Positions 4,969 to 9,187 of a DNA stretch of 64,000 bases are shown here, one piece after another; position 1 is the stretch's first letter; the number at the start of each line of letters is the position of its first letter. Where the stretch lies: contig NZ_FOPS01000011.1 in the NCBI RefSeq assembly GCF_900113545.1, forward strand, positions 1 to 64,000, written 5' to 3'. The notes below the pieces were generated by a model. The model was not told the DNA's origin. It saw only the letters and a list, made by a program, of their open reading frames with translations, and ran no database searches. Both the position numbers and the translations under genes were made by a program. This DNA comes from Neisseria elongata subsp. elongata (GTDB lineage: Bacteria; Pseudomonadota; Gammaproteobacteria; Burkholderiales; Neisseriaceae).

Positions 4969-5472
4969 TTAATCGGTATTGTCCGCTGCTGCGTGAATCA
5001 GGTTTTGCGCCACACGGCGTACCCAACCCTTGCCGAAAGACGTGAACGTGCCGAGCTTGGTATAGAAGACCAGACGCTCGGCGTTGAAACGGAGCAGGAG
5101 GTCATTTTCAGGAAGTGAATTGATGGCTTTGAGACTGATTTCGCCGATAACGCCGTCGTCCGGCACGCCTGCGGCGCGTTGCAGCATACGGGCGGCATTG
5201 CCGTAGCCGTGGTTGATGCAGGCATCGAAGAATTGGAAAGCGACCGCTTCGGGCATTTGGTCGGCGTGGTAACGCTCCCAAAATGCCTTGCGGTAAATAC
5301 CGATGGCCTGCTCGCGCGTCATGGCGCGCATGGAGCCGTTAAAGCCGTTTGCCATTGCGGTACGCTTGGTGATGCCCCAGTTGGTTTCGCCGCCGGGGTC
5401 TTGAGGGTGGTTGACGTAACCGCCCTCGTGGGAGAGGACGCGTTCGATGAATTGGGTGAATTTGTCTGACAT
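4969..5472 (-). CDS. Phage endolysin, glycoside hydrolase 108 family
   Basis: This 167-residue lysozyme-like muramidase would cut peptidoglycan during lysis. The GH108 signature is clear at the N-terminus: VLSHEGGYVNHPQDPGG followed by ETNWGIT, with the Glu of HEGGY as the likely catalytic acid. The C-terminal half has FFDACINHGYGNAARMLQ, which fits the partner peptidoglycan-binding domain of this family. There is no signal peptide, so export should depend on the adjacent holin. It is the first gene of the lysis group. Confidence 0.9.
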   Translation of the reverse strand: MSDKFTQFIERVLSHEGGYVNHPQDPGGETNWGITKRTAMANGFNGSMRAMTREQAIGIYRKAFWERYHADQMPEAVAFQFFDACINHGYGNAARMLQRAAGVPDDGVIGEISLKAINSLPENDLLLRFNAERLVFYTKLGTFTSFGKGWVRRVAQNLIHAAADNTD

Positions 5473-5556
5473 GGGAAAATCCCTGTATTGAGTTGGAAAT
5501 CAATACAGGGATTGTAGGAAAGGCCGTCTGAGGGGGCTTTTAATGCGAGTTAAAAC

Positions 5557-5928
5557 TTAAATGTAACAAAAGGATTGAGGTGCGATACCGTTTGGCAAAA
5601 TATCTGCCAAATCTTTTTGTCGATTATATTTCTTTACTTTGCCTACTTTAATGGCATGTGCAATGTCTTTACCTTCAAAATAAGCTTCAAAGAAATCGGC
5701 ACTGATGCCGGAAAACTCTGCCGTTCTTTCCCATAAATGGATAGGAGACTCTGATATTAATTCTGCAATTTCAAACTCACCAACTACTTTTCCTATAGGT
5801 AAAGTGGCATATATCACTACTTTTTTAACTGCTTTGTTTTTGGGTAAAACCCGACGAAATTCAAATTTTTTCTCGCCACTAAGAATTTTTTCGGCATACT
5901 CGGGTTTAATAGATAACAAAACTTTCAT
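5557..5928 (-). CDS. ASCH-domain protein in prophage accessory locus
   Basis: This 123-residue protein starts MKVLLSIKPEYAEKILSGEK and continues KFEFRR, the typical opening of ASCH domains (a PUA-like fold that binds RNA or nucleosides). Later segments KVVIYATLPIGKVVGEFEI match the core strands. The best studied small ASCH enzyme, E. coli YqfB, hydrolyses N4-acetylcytidine; whether this one does is unknown. Its start overlaps the end of the GNAT gene by 23 bases, so the two are probably translationally coupled. The DNA is visibly more AT-rich than the lysis genes, which suggests a separately acquired cargo. Confidence 0.75.
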   Translation of the reverse strand: MKVLLSIKPEYAEKILSGEKKFEFRRVLPKNKAVKKVVIYATLPIGKVVGEFEIAELISESPIHLWERTAEFSGISADFFEAYFEGKDIAHAIKVGKVKKYNRQKDLADILPNGIAPQSFCYI

Positions 5929-6991
5929 TGACTTGACCTAATCTCAAAATATGATATGCCTGCAGGTGGGTAAGTGGCATAAAACCAAAATATTCACCTT
6001 TACTTAAACCAACCTGCTCAAGTAAATCTTTTCTTATGATTCGCTTGGGTAAGGCAATATTATACGAGAATCTCAATATATGCGGATACTTTCTTACCTG
6101 CCAAAATCGTTGTAACTCTTCTTGAGAGAAAACGCTATAAGGGGCACAGTATTTCTCAAATTCAGCATAGCTATCAAACGAATTAATGTGTCGATATTCT
6201 TCAACGACACATACCGAACTTATCAAGGCACGATAATAAGCCCTTCCCGGTTCATCAGTAGTTCGGTAGATAAATAAGACATCTCCACGTTTTAATTTTT
6301 CAATTCCACCCATATTAGTTAAATACACTTTATGGATACTGTTTGTTGGCGAAACGTCTTGAATAATAGAAGTATCTTCGGTTCTTAGTATTGAATCCGG
6401 AAGTAATCGTGTGTGCCATTCAGGGTAGATTGACAGTAAATAAATCTGAGGTTGATAAGTAGTATCCCCCCTAAAATTCACAAGAGGATAGTTTTTATTG
6501 GTATTTTCCACACCGTTATATATCAGATTAAAGCGTCGAGTTAAAACCAGTTCCGTTCCATTGGCCGTTACCTTTTCCGCCTCTCTCCAAAAACCATATC
6601 GTTCAAATAATGCAATTAAAGAGGCATGTTCAGAAAAAACAGTAACATAAATATCATTGAACCTGTATGTAATCGCATAGTCGAAGATTTTTTTTATAAA
6701 CCGCTCCCCAAGTTTAGTTCCGTGAGCATTGATTTTGAACGTCCCTACTTTCAACCAGCCACTACTGAAGTTGGTGGATAATACCGGAATACAATCATCA
6801 ATAACTTGGGGTTCTGCTTTCAAATATAGAAAACCATCAATCAGACCACGGTCGCCATAAAACACATAAGCATATTCTCCTGCTTTTCTTCGAAACCAAT
6901 CTGAAAATTCACAATAAGATGATTTCAAAGAATCGAAAAAAGGGTCGTCCAGATTTACATCAGCAAAACGTTTGTATTGTAAGTTTTCCAT
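5906..6991 (-). CDS. GNAT acetyltransferase fused to a PUA/ASCH-like domain
   Basis: This 361-residue protein starts MENLQYKRFADVNLDD after an AGGAAGAG ribosome site. Residues 1-150 look like a GNAT fold, with the acetyl-CoA loop near HGTKLGERFIKKIFDYA and a late FERYGFWREAE motif. Residues 190-361 look PUA-like: GDVLFIYRTTDEPG, ALISSVCVVEEY, and a closing YFGFMPLTHLQAYHIL. GNAT-PUA fusions are thought to act on RNA or nucleotides. With the overlapping ASCH gene it forms a two-gene accessory module between endolysin and repressor. The substrate is unknown. Confidence 0.65.
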   Translation of the reverse strand: MENLQYKRFADVNLDDPFFDSLKSSYCEFSDWFRRKAGEYAYVFYGDRGLIDGFLYLKAEPQVIDDCIPVLSTNFSSGWLKVGTFKINAHGTKLGERFIKKIFDYAITYRFNDIYVTVFSEHASLIALFERYGFWREAEKVTANGTELVLTRRFNLIYNGVENTNKNYPLVNFRGDTTYQPQIYLLSIYPEWHTRLLPDSILRTEDTSIIQDVSPTNSIHKVYLTNMGGIEKLKRGDVLFIYRTTDEPGRAYYRALISSVCVVEEYRHINSFDSYAEFEKYCAPYSVFSQEELQRFWQVRKYPHILRFSYNIALPKRIIRKDLLEQVGLSKGEYFGFMPLTHLQAYHILRLGQVNESFVIY

Positions 6992-7027
6992 CTTTCTCTT
7001 CCTGTTTCTATTACAGCTATTCTGGTT

Positions 7028-7246
7028 TTAGTTCAGGTCTTTTGATACCTGCACTACCTGCCCGATGATTTGAATATCGGGGTGTTCCGCCAGTGCCAAG
7101 GGCATAGGCGGATAGGTTGCGTTGTCGGAAATCAAGAGCAGGCTGCCGTCAATTTGGCGTTGGATACGTTTGACCCATAACACATCGCTGCTGCAATTCC
7201 TATATAGATAGTAATTATTCATACTGTCTAAAATTCTCAATATCAA
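7028..7246 (-). pseudogene. C-terminal relic of an S24/LexA-type phage repressor
   Basis: The 72-codon reading contains DVLWVKRIQRQIDGSLLL, ISDNATYPPMPL and DIQIIGQVVQV. This is the end of the S24 autoprotease domain of CI-like repressors, and the Lys of VKRI fits the catalytic lysine. The rest of the protease domain, including the Ser nucleophile, and the DNA-binding half are missing. In their place is an unrelated gene (7215-7847), whose end overlaps this fragment. I read it as what remained after that gene replaced most of the original repressor. Confidence 0.6.
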
Positions 7247-7847
7247 AACTTGGACACCAATCTATATTTTGTTTTACTGCCAATGCGGCAATTTGTTCAT
7301 TCCAATTTCCTAAGTAGGTTTCTTTTTCAATCCTATGGTGACGGAAATTAATACAAGGCATCACAAATTTCTTTGCAGAGGATGTTTCTTTTTTCTTTCC
7401 GGCTAGATCAAGACTGATTTCAAAAGTTGGTCTTGATCCATGCCATAGAAAAATGTCGTCTGAAACAAAGCAACAGTGGCTTTTAGGGTTGGGACAAGAC
7501 TGTGATTTTTGATAGCAGTCTAAAACCCCTAACAAATCATAAATACTGCCACTATGGATTCGGCCATTGATGTAAATCTGTTTGCCATTCCAATTTTCAA
7601 TATAATTCAAAAATACCCCAGCCATCCCAGCCTGTTCTGCTGTTTTATCGAAAGCGCAGCAATAGATGGTTTCTTTTTCAATCTCAAGATTCTCAAATAT
7701 TTTGGCACTTCTTGCCCAAAGTAATGCTGCTTGAAAATTTTTACTGTTGGATTTGACGAATGTTACAACCAGTAGATATTGCTTTGACAAGGCAAATGGA
7801 TTGATATGTTCTTTTTGGCACAATTCGAATTGATCCATTTTATCCAT
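7215..7847 (-). CDS. Unknown protein, 210 residues, coupled to the HTH regulator
   Basis: I do not recognise this protein. It is soluble-looking, with no signal or membrane segment, and starts MDKMDQFELCQKEHINPF. Visible features are a Cys/His-rich middle (CYQKSQSCPNPKSHCC), FVSDDIFLWHGSRP, and INFRHHRIEKETYLGNWNE near the end. Its start overlaps the end of the HTH gene by eight bases (ATGGATAA), so the two are probably co-translated. Base composition is AT-rich like the GNAT/ASCH pair. Position next to the repressor suggests a lysogenic-conversion gene, for example one acting in regulation or superinfection exclusion. Confidence 0.55.
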   Translation of the reverse strand: MDKMDQFELCQKEHINPFALSKQYLLVVTFVKSNSKNFQAALLWARSAKIFENLEIEKETIYCCAFDKTAEQAGMAGVFLNYIENWNGKQIYINGRIHSGSIYDLLGVLDCYQKSQSCPNPKSHCCFVSDDIFLWHGSRPTFEISLDLAGKKKETSSAKKFVMPCINFRHHRIEKETYLGNWNEQIAALAVKQNIDWCPSFDIENFRQYE

Positions 7848-8208
7848 TACTCACTTTACCAAGCGCAGTTTGGGCTTTTTTCTCTGCACCTTTTGCCACA
7901 CTGAGAATGACAAATTTACCGTTATCGCTGGCTTGGCGGTAATACCCTAATAACTCTGACTCTTCCTTACTAATTTCAGAATTTTCAGACGGCCTAATTT
8001 CCTGTTCTGCAGCAAACAGACTGCTCACATCTATTCCCATATTCAAAAAAGAGAGCAATACGTCTCCACTAGGCATAAATACGCCACGTTCGTATTTACC
8101 CCATGTTTCACGCTCAATACCTGCTTTTTCAGCAGCTTGCGCTTGGGTTAACCCTAAAAACTTTCTTTTTTCTTTCAAACGATTACCAAAAAGAGATTTA
8201 GAAATCAC
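7840..8208 (-). CDS. HTH (Cro/CI-type) phage repressor
   Basis: This 122-residue DNA-binding protein has an N-terminal HTH_3 domain: LKEKRKFLGLTQAQAAEKAG, then ERETWGKYERGVFMPSGD (residues about 10-45). The C-terminal part (residues 75-122) is short, with no S24 protease, so it would not be cleaved in the LexA way. It faces the gp16-type regulator across a 117-base control region that contains two dyads. The likely role is maintaining lysogeny or blocking the rightward early promoter. Confidence 0.75.
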   Translation of the reverse strand: MISKSLFGNRLKEKRKFLGLTQAQAAEKAGIERETWGKYERGVFMPSGDVLLSFLNMGIDVSSLFAAEQEIRPSENSEISKEESELLGYYRQASDNGKFVILSVAKGAEKKAQTALGKVSNG

Positions 8209-8513: not shown

Positions 8514-8807
8514 ATGGCGACGAGTAAAAAGGCGCAACGGTTGTTGCGGGTGTTTTTGGCGATGGATGCACATCCAATAGTCGGTATCAGCAATAAGGAG
8601 CTTTCAGACGGCCTGGGCATTCCACCCGCTTCGGCGAGCCGGGATTTGGAAGACCTGATGGCGGCCGGACTGGTGGTACGGCTGGACAACGGCAACTATG
8701 CCTACAGCGTGCGGACGCTGCAAATTGCGGAACGCTTCCGGCAGCAGCAGGAAAGGCTGACGGCGAAGCTGAAAGAGATACACGACCGCACCAGCAATGT
8801 CTGGTAA
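8514..8807 (+). CDS. IclR-like winged-helix phage regulator
   Basis: This 97-residue protein starts MATSKKAQRLLRVFLAMDAH. It has a winged-helix N-terminus of IclR/MarR type (GISNKELSDGLGIPPASASR, then LEDLMAAGLVVRLDNGNYAY) and a short helical tail, but no effector domain. I chose the ATG at 8514 because AAGGAGG at 8501-8507 is six bases away; the ATG at 8508 has no spacing. In BcepMu-type phages such a gene is followed by transposase genes; here tail genes follow. Confidence 0.7.
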   Translation: MATSKKAQRLLRVFLAMDAHPIVGISNKELSDGLGIPPASASRDLEDLMAAGLVVRLDNGNYAYSVRTLQIAERFRQQQERLTAKLKEIHDRTSNVW

Positions 8808-8809
8808 TC

Positions 8810-8835
8810 CAAAATGGACGCCAGCGTCCATTTTG
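8810..8835. repeat. Perfect 11-base inverted repeat at the early/tail junction
   Basis: CAAAATGGACG and CGTCCATTTTG flank a four-base loop, just after the IclR-like stop and 22 bases before the tail gene. No T-run follows, so it is a weak terminator at best. It may be an operator, or mark the point where early and tail segments were joined. Confidence 0.55.
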
Positions 8836-8857
8836 AAACGACAGAAAAGGAAAAAAC

Positions 8858-9187
8858 ATGGGAACAGAAATTTTAGGGCACACGGTTGATGTTTCGTCTG
8901 CCGAATTCGGAGAAGTCGAAATTACCGAAGGCTATGGCAACAAACGGCATAACGGCGAAATCGTCCGCAACGGCCGACATGCCTACGGCCACAGCGACCG
9001 CTGGGCGCACTACCGCATCACGATGCCTCATGCCATCACCAATGACCAGGCCGATCTGCTGCGGCACACCCTGAGTGCATTTGCACCGGCACGCTGCGTT
9101 TTAGCCGCACTCGATTACCAACATGCCGCCTTAAGGCACAACGGCCGCGCCTTGCGCGACGGCAAATTCAACAGAGGAACCGCATAA
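8858..9187 (+). CDS. Phage tail-associated protein upstream of the fibre
   Basis: This 109-residue protein starts MGTEILGHTVDVSSAEFGEV. I know no named domain for it, but proteins of this kind lie directly before tail fibre genes in neisserial Mu-like prophages. It has HAYGHSDRWAHYRITMPHAI and ends DGKFNRGTA. An AGGAAA ribosome site precedes it, and the fibre gene starts 12 bases after its stop, so co-expression is likely. A baseplate or fibre-attachment role is inferred from position. Confidence 0.55.
   Translation: MGTEILGHTVDVSSAEFGEVEITEGYGNKRHNGEIVRNGRHAYGHSDRWAHYRITMPHAITNDQADLLRHTLSAFAPARCVLAALDYQHAALRHNGRALRDGKFNRGTA

Follow-up and report, generated by a model that had tools for sequence, protein, structure and literature searches.

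A GNAT-EVE/ASCH gene pair in a variable prophage slot of Neisseria elongata: most likely a toxin-antitoxin or superinfection-defence unit

The window analysed here is a stretch of 64,000 nucleotides from Neisseria elongata subsp. elongata (contig NZ_FOPS01000011.1), in which a Mu-like prophage carries two overlapping genes on the reverse strand. The first encodes a GNAT-EVE protein, consisting of a GNAT domain followed by a PUA-like domain, and the second encodes a small ASCH protein. The features of the pair are as follows.

5906..6991, reverse strand: GNAT-EVE gene, 361 amino acids, putative toxin (open reading frame list; PDC-M11A, phrog_6345, GevT-like; structure model)
6521..6991, reverse strand: GNAT domain, residues 1-157 of GNAT-EVE
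5909..6454, reverse strand: C-terminal PUA-like (EVE/ASCH-like) domain, residues about 180-361 of GNAT-EVE
5557..5928, reverse strand: ASCH gene, 123 amino acids, putative antitoxin (PDC-M11B, phrog_3136, GevA-like)
5906..5928, reverse strand: overlap of 23 nucleotides, comprising the final GNAT-EVE codons and stop and the opening ASCH codons
5936..5939, reverse strand: AGGT, a Shine-Dalgarno-like site for ASCH within the GNAT-EVE coding sequence

The best PADLOC models for the two proteins are PDC-M11A for GNAT-EVE (E 3.4e-128) and PDC-M11B for ASCH (E 7.3e-49), the two parts of PDC-M11, a candidate phage-defence system. GNAT-EVE additionally matches phrog_6345 (E 1.2e-139), and the PHROGs annotation of both this family and phrog_3136 is "unknown function". 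The PADLOC model and the structure model both place the GNAT domain N-terminal to an EVE/PUA-like domain in one protein, beside which the small PDC-M11B protein is encoded. The proteins share 45% and 49% identity, respectively, with GevT and GevA of the E. coli phage PhiR47_2 (GenBank PV340567.1), homologues to which the depositor gave the labels 'GevT toxin' and 'GevA antitoxin'. The likeness to the PhiR47_2 genes, which are identical in lambda-like coliphages, comprises end-to-end homology of both proteins, the same order, the same 23-nucleotide overlap, and a position directly downstream of a repressor gene; however, their host element is a lambda-like phage, whereas the window pair resides in a Mu-like prophage. 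Judged by these matches, the pair is a member of the known but little-studied GNAT-EVE/ASCH (PDC-M11, GevT/GevA) modules. An earlier, sequence-only reading of this DNA, which described a GNAT and PUA-like gene overlapping a small ASCH gene by 23 nucleotides, was correct on this architecture.

According to Bell et al. 2020 (PMC7641849, in excerpt), GNAT-EVE proteins occur in beta- and gamma-proteobacterial prophages with ASCH nearly always present, and these are predicted toxin-antitoxin systems. The window pair resembles their (PIN)-GNAT-EVE/ASCH systems in the order of the GNAT and EVE domains, the ASCH partner, and the prophage setting; however, it has neither a PIN domain nor an adjacent AAA_17 gene among the open reading frames examined. 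The excerpt makes no mention of a fixed overlap, of separate GNAT and EVE genes, or of a cargo slot. The term 'PDC-M11', a PADLOC candidate label only, was not found in the literature searched, the excerpt of PMC10853773 holds nothing on the pair, and that of PMC13190303 names phage PhiR47.1 and does not mention GevT/GevA. New here are the frozen overlap, the embedded ribosome-binding-like site, the broken GNAT-EVE genes beside intact ASCH, the split GNAT and EVE genes, and the variable cargo within the same genus.

The distribution of the pair was followed with a narrow single-motif scan anchored on ASCH, which confirmed 308 loci in 84,980 species genomes, and with a second, redundant set of 56 viral loci anchored on GNAT-EVE. 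The sequence-only reading had suggested looking for the same pair elsewhere, and it recurs: among the best 80 of the 308 loci, which were kept for analysis, a GNAT-EVE match lies on the ASCH strand in 76 (76 of the 78 having upstream DNA), and the two genes are adjacent in 75 of these, the exception (L054) having 882 nucleotides between them. Two of the four loci without GNAT-EVE lie at contig ends (L053, L062), and the other two are real absences (L014, L089). An unanchored check of 369 genomes of the class found GNAT-EVE in six and ASCH in eight, the genes being neighbours in all six GNAT-EVE genomes. Within the genus, GNAT-EVE occurs in one of 46 genomes, the window's own.

The junction of the two genes is constant in most loci. 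The overlap measures 23 nucleotides in 66 of the 80 genome loci, 29 in four, 4 in four, and 1 in one, with the genes 882 nucleotides apart in one and no partner in four. The viral set gives 23 nucleotides in 45 of 56 loci, 29 in five, 38 in one, and 4 in one, with ASCH upstream in two and no count in two; collapsed for redundancy, it retains the 23-nucleotide overlap in 29 of 38. The same overlap is found in Salmonella SopEPhi, Lactobacillus Lj965, and the archaeal Methanothermobacter prophage psiM100. Of the 111 loci with 23 nucleotides, 110 use ATT as ASCH codon 7 and one uses GTT, which puts TAA in the toxin frame; loci with 29 nucleotides use ATC or ATA there, and the toxin stops two codons further on in the same frame. 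The constancy is partly due to conservation of the ASCH SIKP motif; nonetheless, the loci also keep the same synonymous codon choice and frame. A Shine-Dalgarno-like 4-mer lies ahead of the ASCH start, at -16 to -5 and within the toxin gene, in 68 of 99 distinct loci, whereas in-frame control positions had one in 12.2 loci on average and in 22 at most in 1000 draws, an excess to which conserved glycine codons may contribute. The overlap and this site fit an antitoxin that would be translated in step with its toxin.

Conservation in GNAT-EVE was assessed on 76 of 116 full-length open reading frames, leaving out redundant rows and loci taken from annotated regions. The structure model shows a NAT-like GNAT fold in the N-terminal domain, in which K58, E60, K81, T84, K86, G95, R97, Y115, T117, and K140 are invariant in all 76 sequences and E147 is kept in 75; by this alignment, the domain retains a conserved polar site. 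The canonical coenzyme A (CoA) loop of GNAT enzymes reads Q/RxxGxG/A. The window has HGTKLG in its place: the last Gly is kept in 76 of 76, none has Gly at the first Gly position, and five begin the loop with R or Q. Likewise, the usual catalytic Tyr before the GF motif is mostly replaced, position 129 (assigned by alignment to PaiA 1tiq) being F in 36 sequences, L in 32, I in three, M in three, and Y in two. The sequence-only reading had made its case depend on a PUA/ASCH fold and on the acetyl-CoA site residues; the PUA-like fold is present by structure, but the CoA-loop signature and the Tyr are mostly missing. Acyl donors other than acetyl-CoA, or a substrate-assisted reaction, are possible.

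The GNAT toxins TacT, AtaT, and KacT, of which the TacT/AtaT type acetylates aminoacyl-tRNA, combine a catalytic Tyr with a DNA-binding RHH or HTH antitoxin. The window pair shares with them a GNAT-fold candidate toxin and a small partner, but differs in that the partner is an ASCH protein, the toxin gene comes first, an additional PUA-like domain is present, and the usual Tyr is missing. No DNA-binding RHH or HTH antitoxin accompanies the candidate toxin, whose sole partner is the 123-residue ASCH protein.

For the C-terminal domain of the putative toxin, Pfam EVE gave weak matches in just two of the 76 members, and a profile search of the PDB with an E cutoff of 1 came back empty. In several relatives (L028, L048, L055, which equals L109, L085, L139, and L141, among them Serratia, Citrobacter, an Enterobacteriaceae isolate, and Pantoea), the end of the GNAT gene and the beginning of EVE, which has its own start codon, lie within a few bases of each other; since such split loci exist, the two domains appear able to work as separate chains. 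Other members carry a PIN-like N-terminal extension, defined as an open reading frame of at least 495 amino acids with an LxDTN-type motif, in 17 of 61 full-length genome loci and one of 47 viral loci; a first estimate by hidden Markov model boundary gave 11 of 61. The PIN assignment draws on a conserved LLDTN motif and acidic residues in 13 sequences, together with Bell et al. (PMC7641849, in excerpt), and the N-terminal part of psiM100, compared by sequence with the PDB, had no match.

Decay of the pair seems to fall mainly on the putative toxin. GNAT-EVE is broken or truncated beside an intact ASCH in six of the 72 genome loci in which it is not cut by a contig end (L019, L024, L037, L041, L059, and L078; L066 is unclassed). 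Among the 56 viral loci, ASCH is intact in 55, the remaining one being cut by a contig end, and GNAT-EVE is broken in five (L125, L136, L137, L144, and L145, of which L137 equals L037 and L145 equals L011).

The pair is flanked by the following genes of the prophage.

4969..5472, reverse strand: GH108 endolysin, directly downstream of the pair, left flank of the slot (Pfam 1.7e-28)
7028..7246, reverse strand: C-terminal S24 (CI-type repressor) piece, directly upstream, right edge of the slot (Pfam Peptidase_S24 4.1e-6)
7840..8208, reverse strand: HTH repressor-like gene, upstream (HTH_19 3.3e-8; phrog_8, phrog_3)

The pair thus lies between endolysin and repressor-side genes, as the sequence-only reading had placed it, and the comparison with same-genus prophages bears out its description as a cargo locus. 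Seventeen other endolysin matches were available in the genus, from which 12 loci were fetched, 11 with a boundable slot. Homology on the left extends to 5555-5560 in nine of the 12, homology on the right stops at 7027-7038 in most, and tblastn found neither GNAT-EVE nor ASCH in these 12 loci sharing the endolysin. In the 11 loci, the slot between the endolysin and the repressor-side genes spans 860-2777 bp and holds other genes. These observations support 5557-7028 as a variable cargo slot. As a defence slot it is only partly supported: among ten slot proteins scanned were one RelA/SpoT-domain protein with an NA37 protein next to it (PDC-S33, 2.3e-12; L194) and one PDC-S42 protein (8.7e-27; L190), while seven had no PADLOC match at 0.01 and one had a marginal AbiEi match alone. 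Lambda-like coliphages have the pair immediately after cI, where lambda itself carries rexAB.

We propose a toxin-antitoxin or superinfection-defence unit of the prophage, with putative toxicity and chemistry, as the likeliest identity of the pair. That it is a toxin-antitoxin-type unit carried by the prophage and of the GNAT-EVE/ASCH (PDC-M11, GevT/GevA) kind we consider reasonably probable, somewhat better than an even chance. In favour are the PDC-M11 and GevT/GevA matches, the linkage of the two genes, their constant overlap with the internal ribosome-binding-like site, the broken GNAT-EVE genes beside intact ASCH, the PIN-type extensions of relatives, and the repressor genes next to the pair in lambda-like phages and among its upstream neighbours. 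The PUA-like domain of GNAT-EVE would bind RNA, possibly modified RNA, and the GNAT domain would acylate that RNA or charged tRNA, such that translation stops. ASCH, produced from the internal start that overlaps the toxin end, would neutralise GNAT-EVE; the simplest route would be binding, either to the toxin or to the same RNA, and not deacetylation. Because the pair adjoins repressor genes, it is probably on in the lysogen, where it may guard against superinfection or stabilise the prophage; if infection or prophage loss upset the balance, GNAT-EVE would hit RNA, most plausibly tRNA, and growth would halt. GNAT-EVE/ASCH pairs are widespread, as the 308 ASCH loci attest, and no published function was found for them in the literature searched. 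Should the pair prove to be a toxin-antitoxin system with a PUA-like rather than a DNA-binding antidote, it would extend the known antitoxin types and might also reveal a novel chemistry of RNA acylation, and the residues and fixed overlap reported here make the idea testable.

Several observations weigh against this proposal. ASCH occurs without GNAT-EVE in two of the eight ASCH genomes of the unanchored set, as well as in L014 and L089; 14 of the 80 genome loci lack the 23-nucleotide overlap, and Enterococcus L007 has a gap instead. The asymmetry in decay (broken GNAT-EVE in 6 of 72 against broken ASCH in 0 of 55; Fisher P 0.036, uncorrected) is small and compares two differently anchored sets, and the frameshifts, being in draft genomes, may be sequencing errors. 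With Tyr in two of 76 sequences and most of the CoA-loop signature missing, acetyl transfer is uncertain. Moreover, none of these modules had been characterised by 2020 according to Bell et al. (PMC7641849, in excerpt), no toxicity or rescue experiment for the family was found in the literature searched, and GevT and GevA are depositor labels for which no paper was found among the matches listed in that search.

The alternatives differ chiefly in what ASCH is expected to do, and its conserved residues were compared with two related proteins on an alignment of 74 of 145 open reading frames, again leaving out redundant rows and loci taken from annotated regions. K20, E23, R25, Y40, Q118, S119, and Y122 are invariant in all 74. 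The reference for YqfB was L149 (in the genome of L048; PF04266, E 2.9e-20), a protein presumed to be YqfB. Its Lys21 and Arg26 have equivalents in K20 and R25 in 74 of 74 rows and its Glu74 falls in a gapped stretch, but the nucleophile Thr24 is replaced by Glu23 in the window and in all 74 rows. The sequence-only reading had envisaged a writer and an eraser, in which GNAT acetylates an RNA nucleoside and ASCH removes the acetyl group as a YqfB-type N4-acetylcytidine (ac4C) amidohydrolase. The GNAT fold, the retained Lys and Arg, and the fact that YqfB, an ac4C amidohydrolase inactivated by T24A, belongs to the ASCH superfamily (PMC6972931, in excerpt) speak for it. However, because the ASCH active site lacks the YqfB nucleophile, the YqfB-type eraser is rejected and the scheme as a whole is highly improbable; the other part of that reading, a toxin-antitoxin-like or phage-defence unit, is in keeping with the PDC-M11 candidate and the GevT/GevA labels. 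Excluding the YqfB active site spares a wrong first assay. The second protein, ZmASCH (PDB 5guq, 5gus), degrades single-stranded RNA (PMC5615036, in excerpt), and its fold and cleft residues Tyr47, Gln127, and Ser128 recur in the window ASCH; in the alignment, its RNA-contact residues are retained except Lys53. An antitoxin acting as an RNase on the toxin message or on toxin-modified RNA nevertheless seems distinctly unlikely, since the counterpart in the alignment of Lys53, on which strong binding of nucleic acid depends, is G46 (61 of 74 sequences have Gly there, and K47 is adjacent).

Iyer et al. 2013, as Bell et al. 2020 cite them, proposed a role in DNA-base modification or anti-restriction, whereby the pair would act on modified DNA bases by acetylation or recognition and shield phage DNA from host restriction; Bell et al. 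themselves suggest binding of modified DNA by ASCH and a possible protective effect of GNAT-EVE for phages (PMC7641849, in excerpt). The PIN-type RNase domain that relatives carry by motif and the RNA substrate of ZmASCH (PMC5615036, in excerpt) point to RNA instead, and we regard this role as unlikely. Slightly less credible still is an accessory unit of the lysogen that processes RNA or tunes translation and involves no toxin. It would accord with a NAT-like GNAT fold devoid of a catalytic signature and with the lack of toxicity data in the literature searched; however, the scattered occurrence in prophages (one of 46 genomes of the genus), the depositor toxin label, and the broken toxins beside intact ASCH argue against it. 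More of a chance, though still doubtful, is given to ASCH as a paralogue and mimic of the toxin's own reader domain. It would then occupy either the RNA that this domain targets or the interface through which the domain dimerises, and would be made in fixed proportion from one message. Both domains are PUA-like by structure and start with LLSIxPE, and the 23-nucleotide overlap that ties the antitoxin start to the toxin end recurs from proteobacterial prophages to the archaeal psiM100. Their profile comparison gave E 0.0046 with a probability of 7.6% over 15 residues, and its score of 23.2 compares with a maximum of 22.2 in 300 column shuffles, whereas motif-keeping shuffles of 10-column blocks reach 33.8. 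Paralogy by sequence was rejected, as the sequence evidence reduces to one short motif; the case consists of that motif and the shared fold, and the two may simply be members of a large superfamily. If true, the mimic would define a toxin-antitoxin type whose antidote copies the aiming part of the toxin.

As for the prophage itself, two genes past a ner-like gene its Mu-like relatives encode a transposase (phrog_310, E 5.3e-112, L188). In the window at 8807-8858, a tail gene at 8858 follows directly after 8807, and since the transposase region that follows phrog_1368 in relatives is missing, the prophage looks defective here. Only the C-terminal piece of the S24 repressor is left, with the HTH gene and a phrog_16260 gene upstream; in L185, phrog_16260 lies on the opposite side of the S24 piece. 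The slots of L185 and L189 hold a membrane pair of 322 and 160 amino acids with no assigned function. A GCCGTCTGA motif at 5520-5535, between the endolysin and ASCH, resembles the Neisseria DNA uptake sequence.

The surroundings of the pair vary among the other loci. An AAA_17 P-loop gene is found near it in 35 of 141 loci, and the 57 distinct genes upstream include the repressor family phrog_4 in seven cases and AAA_17 in 11. In L054, an AAA_17 gene stands between GNAT-EVE and ASCH, and in L121 and L122, ASCH comes first. A second, free-standing GNAT gene (phrog_13728, the PHROG of the toxin N-terminal domain) directly follows ASCH at L042:6451-7005 and L091:6374-6949. In Lactobacillus prophage Lj965 (L006, 4319-4894), four tRNA genes lie immediately upstream of the pair, which would be of interest if the toxin targets tRNA.
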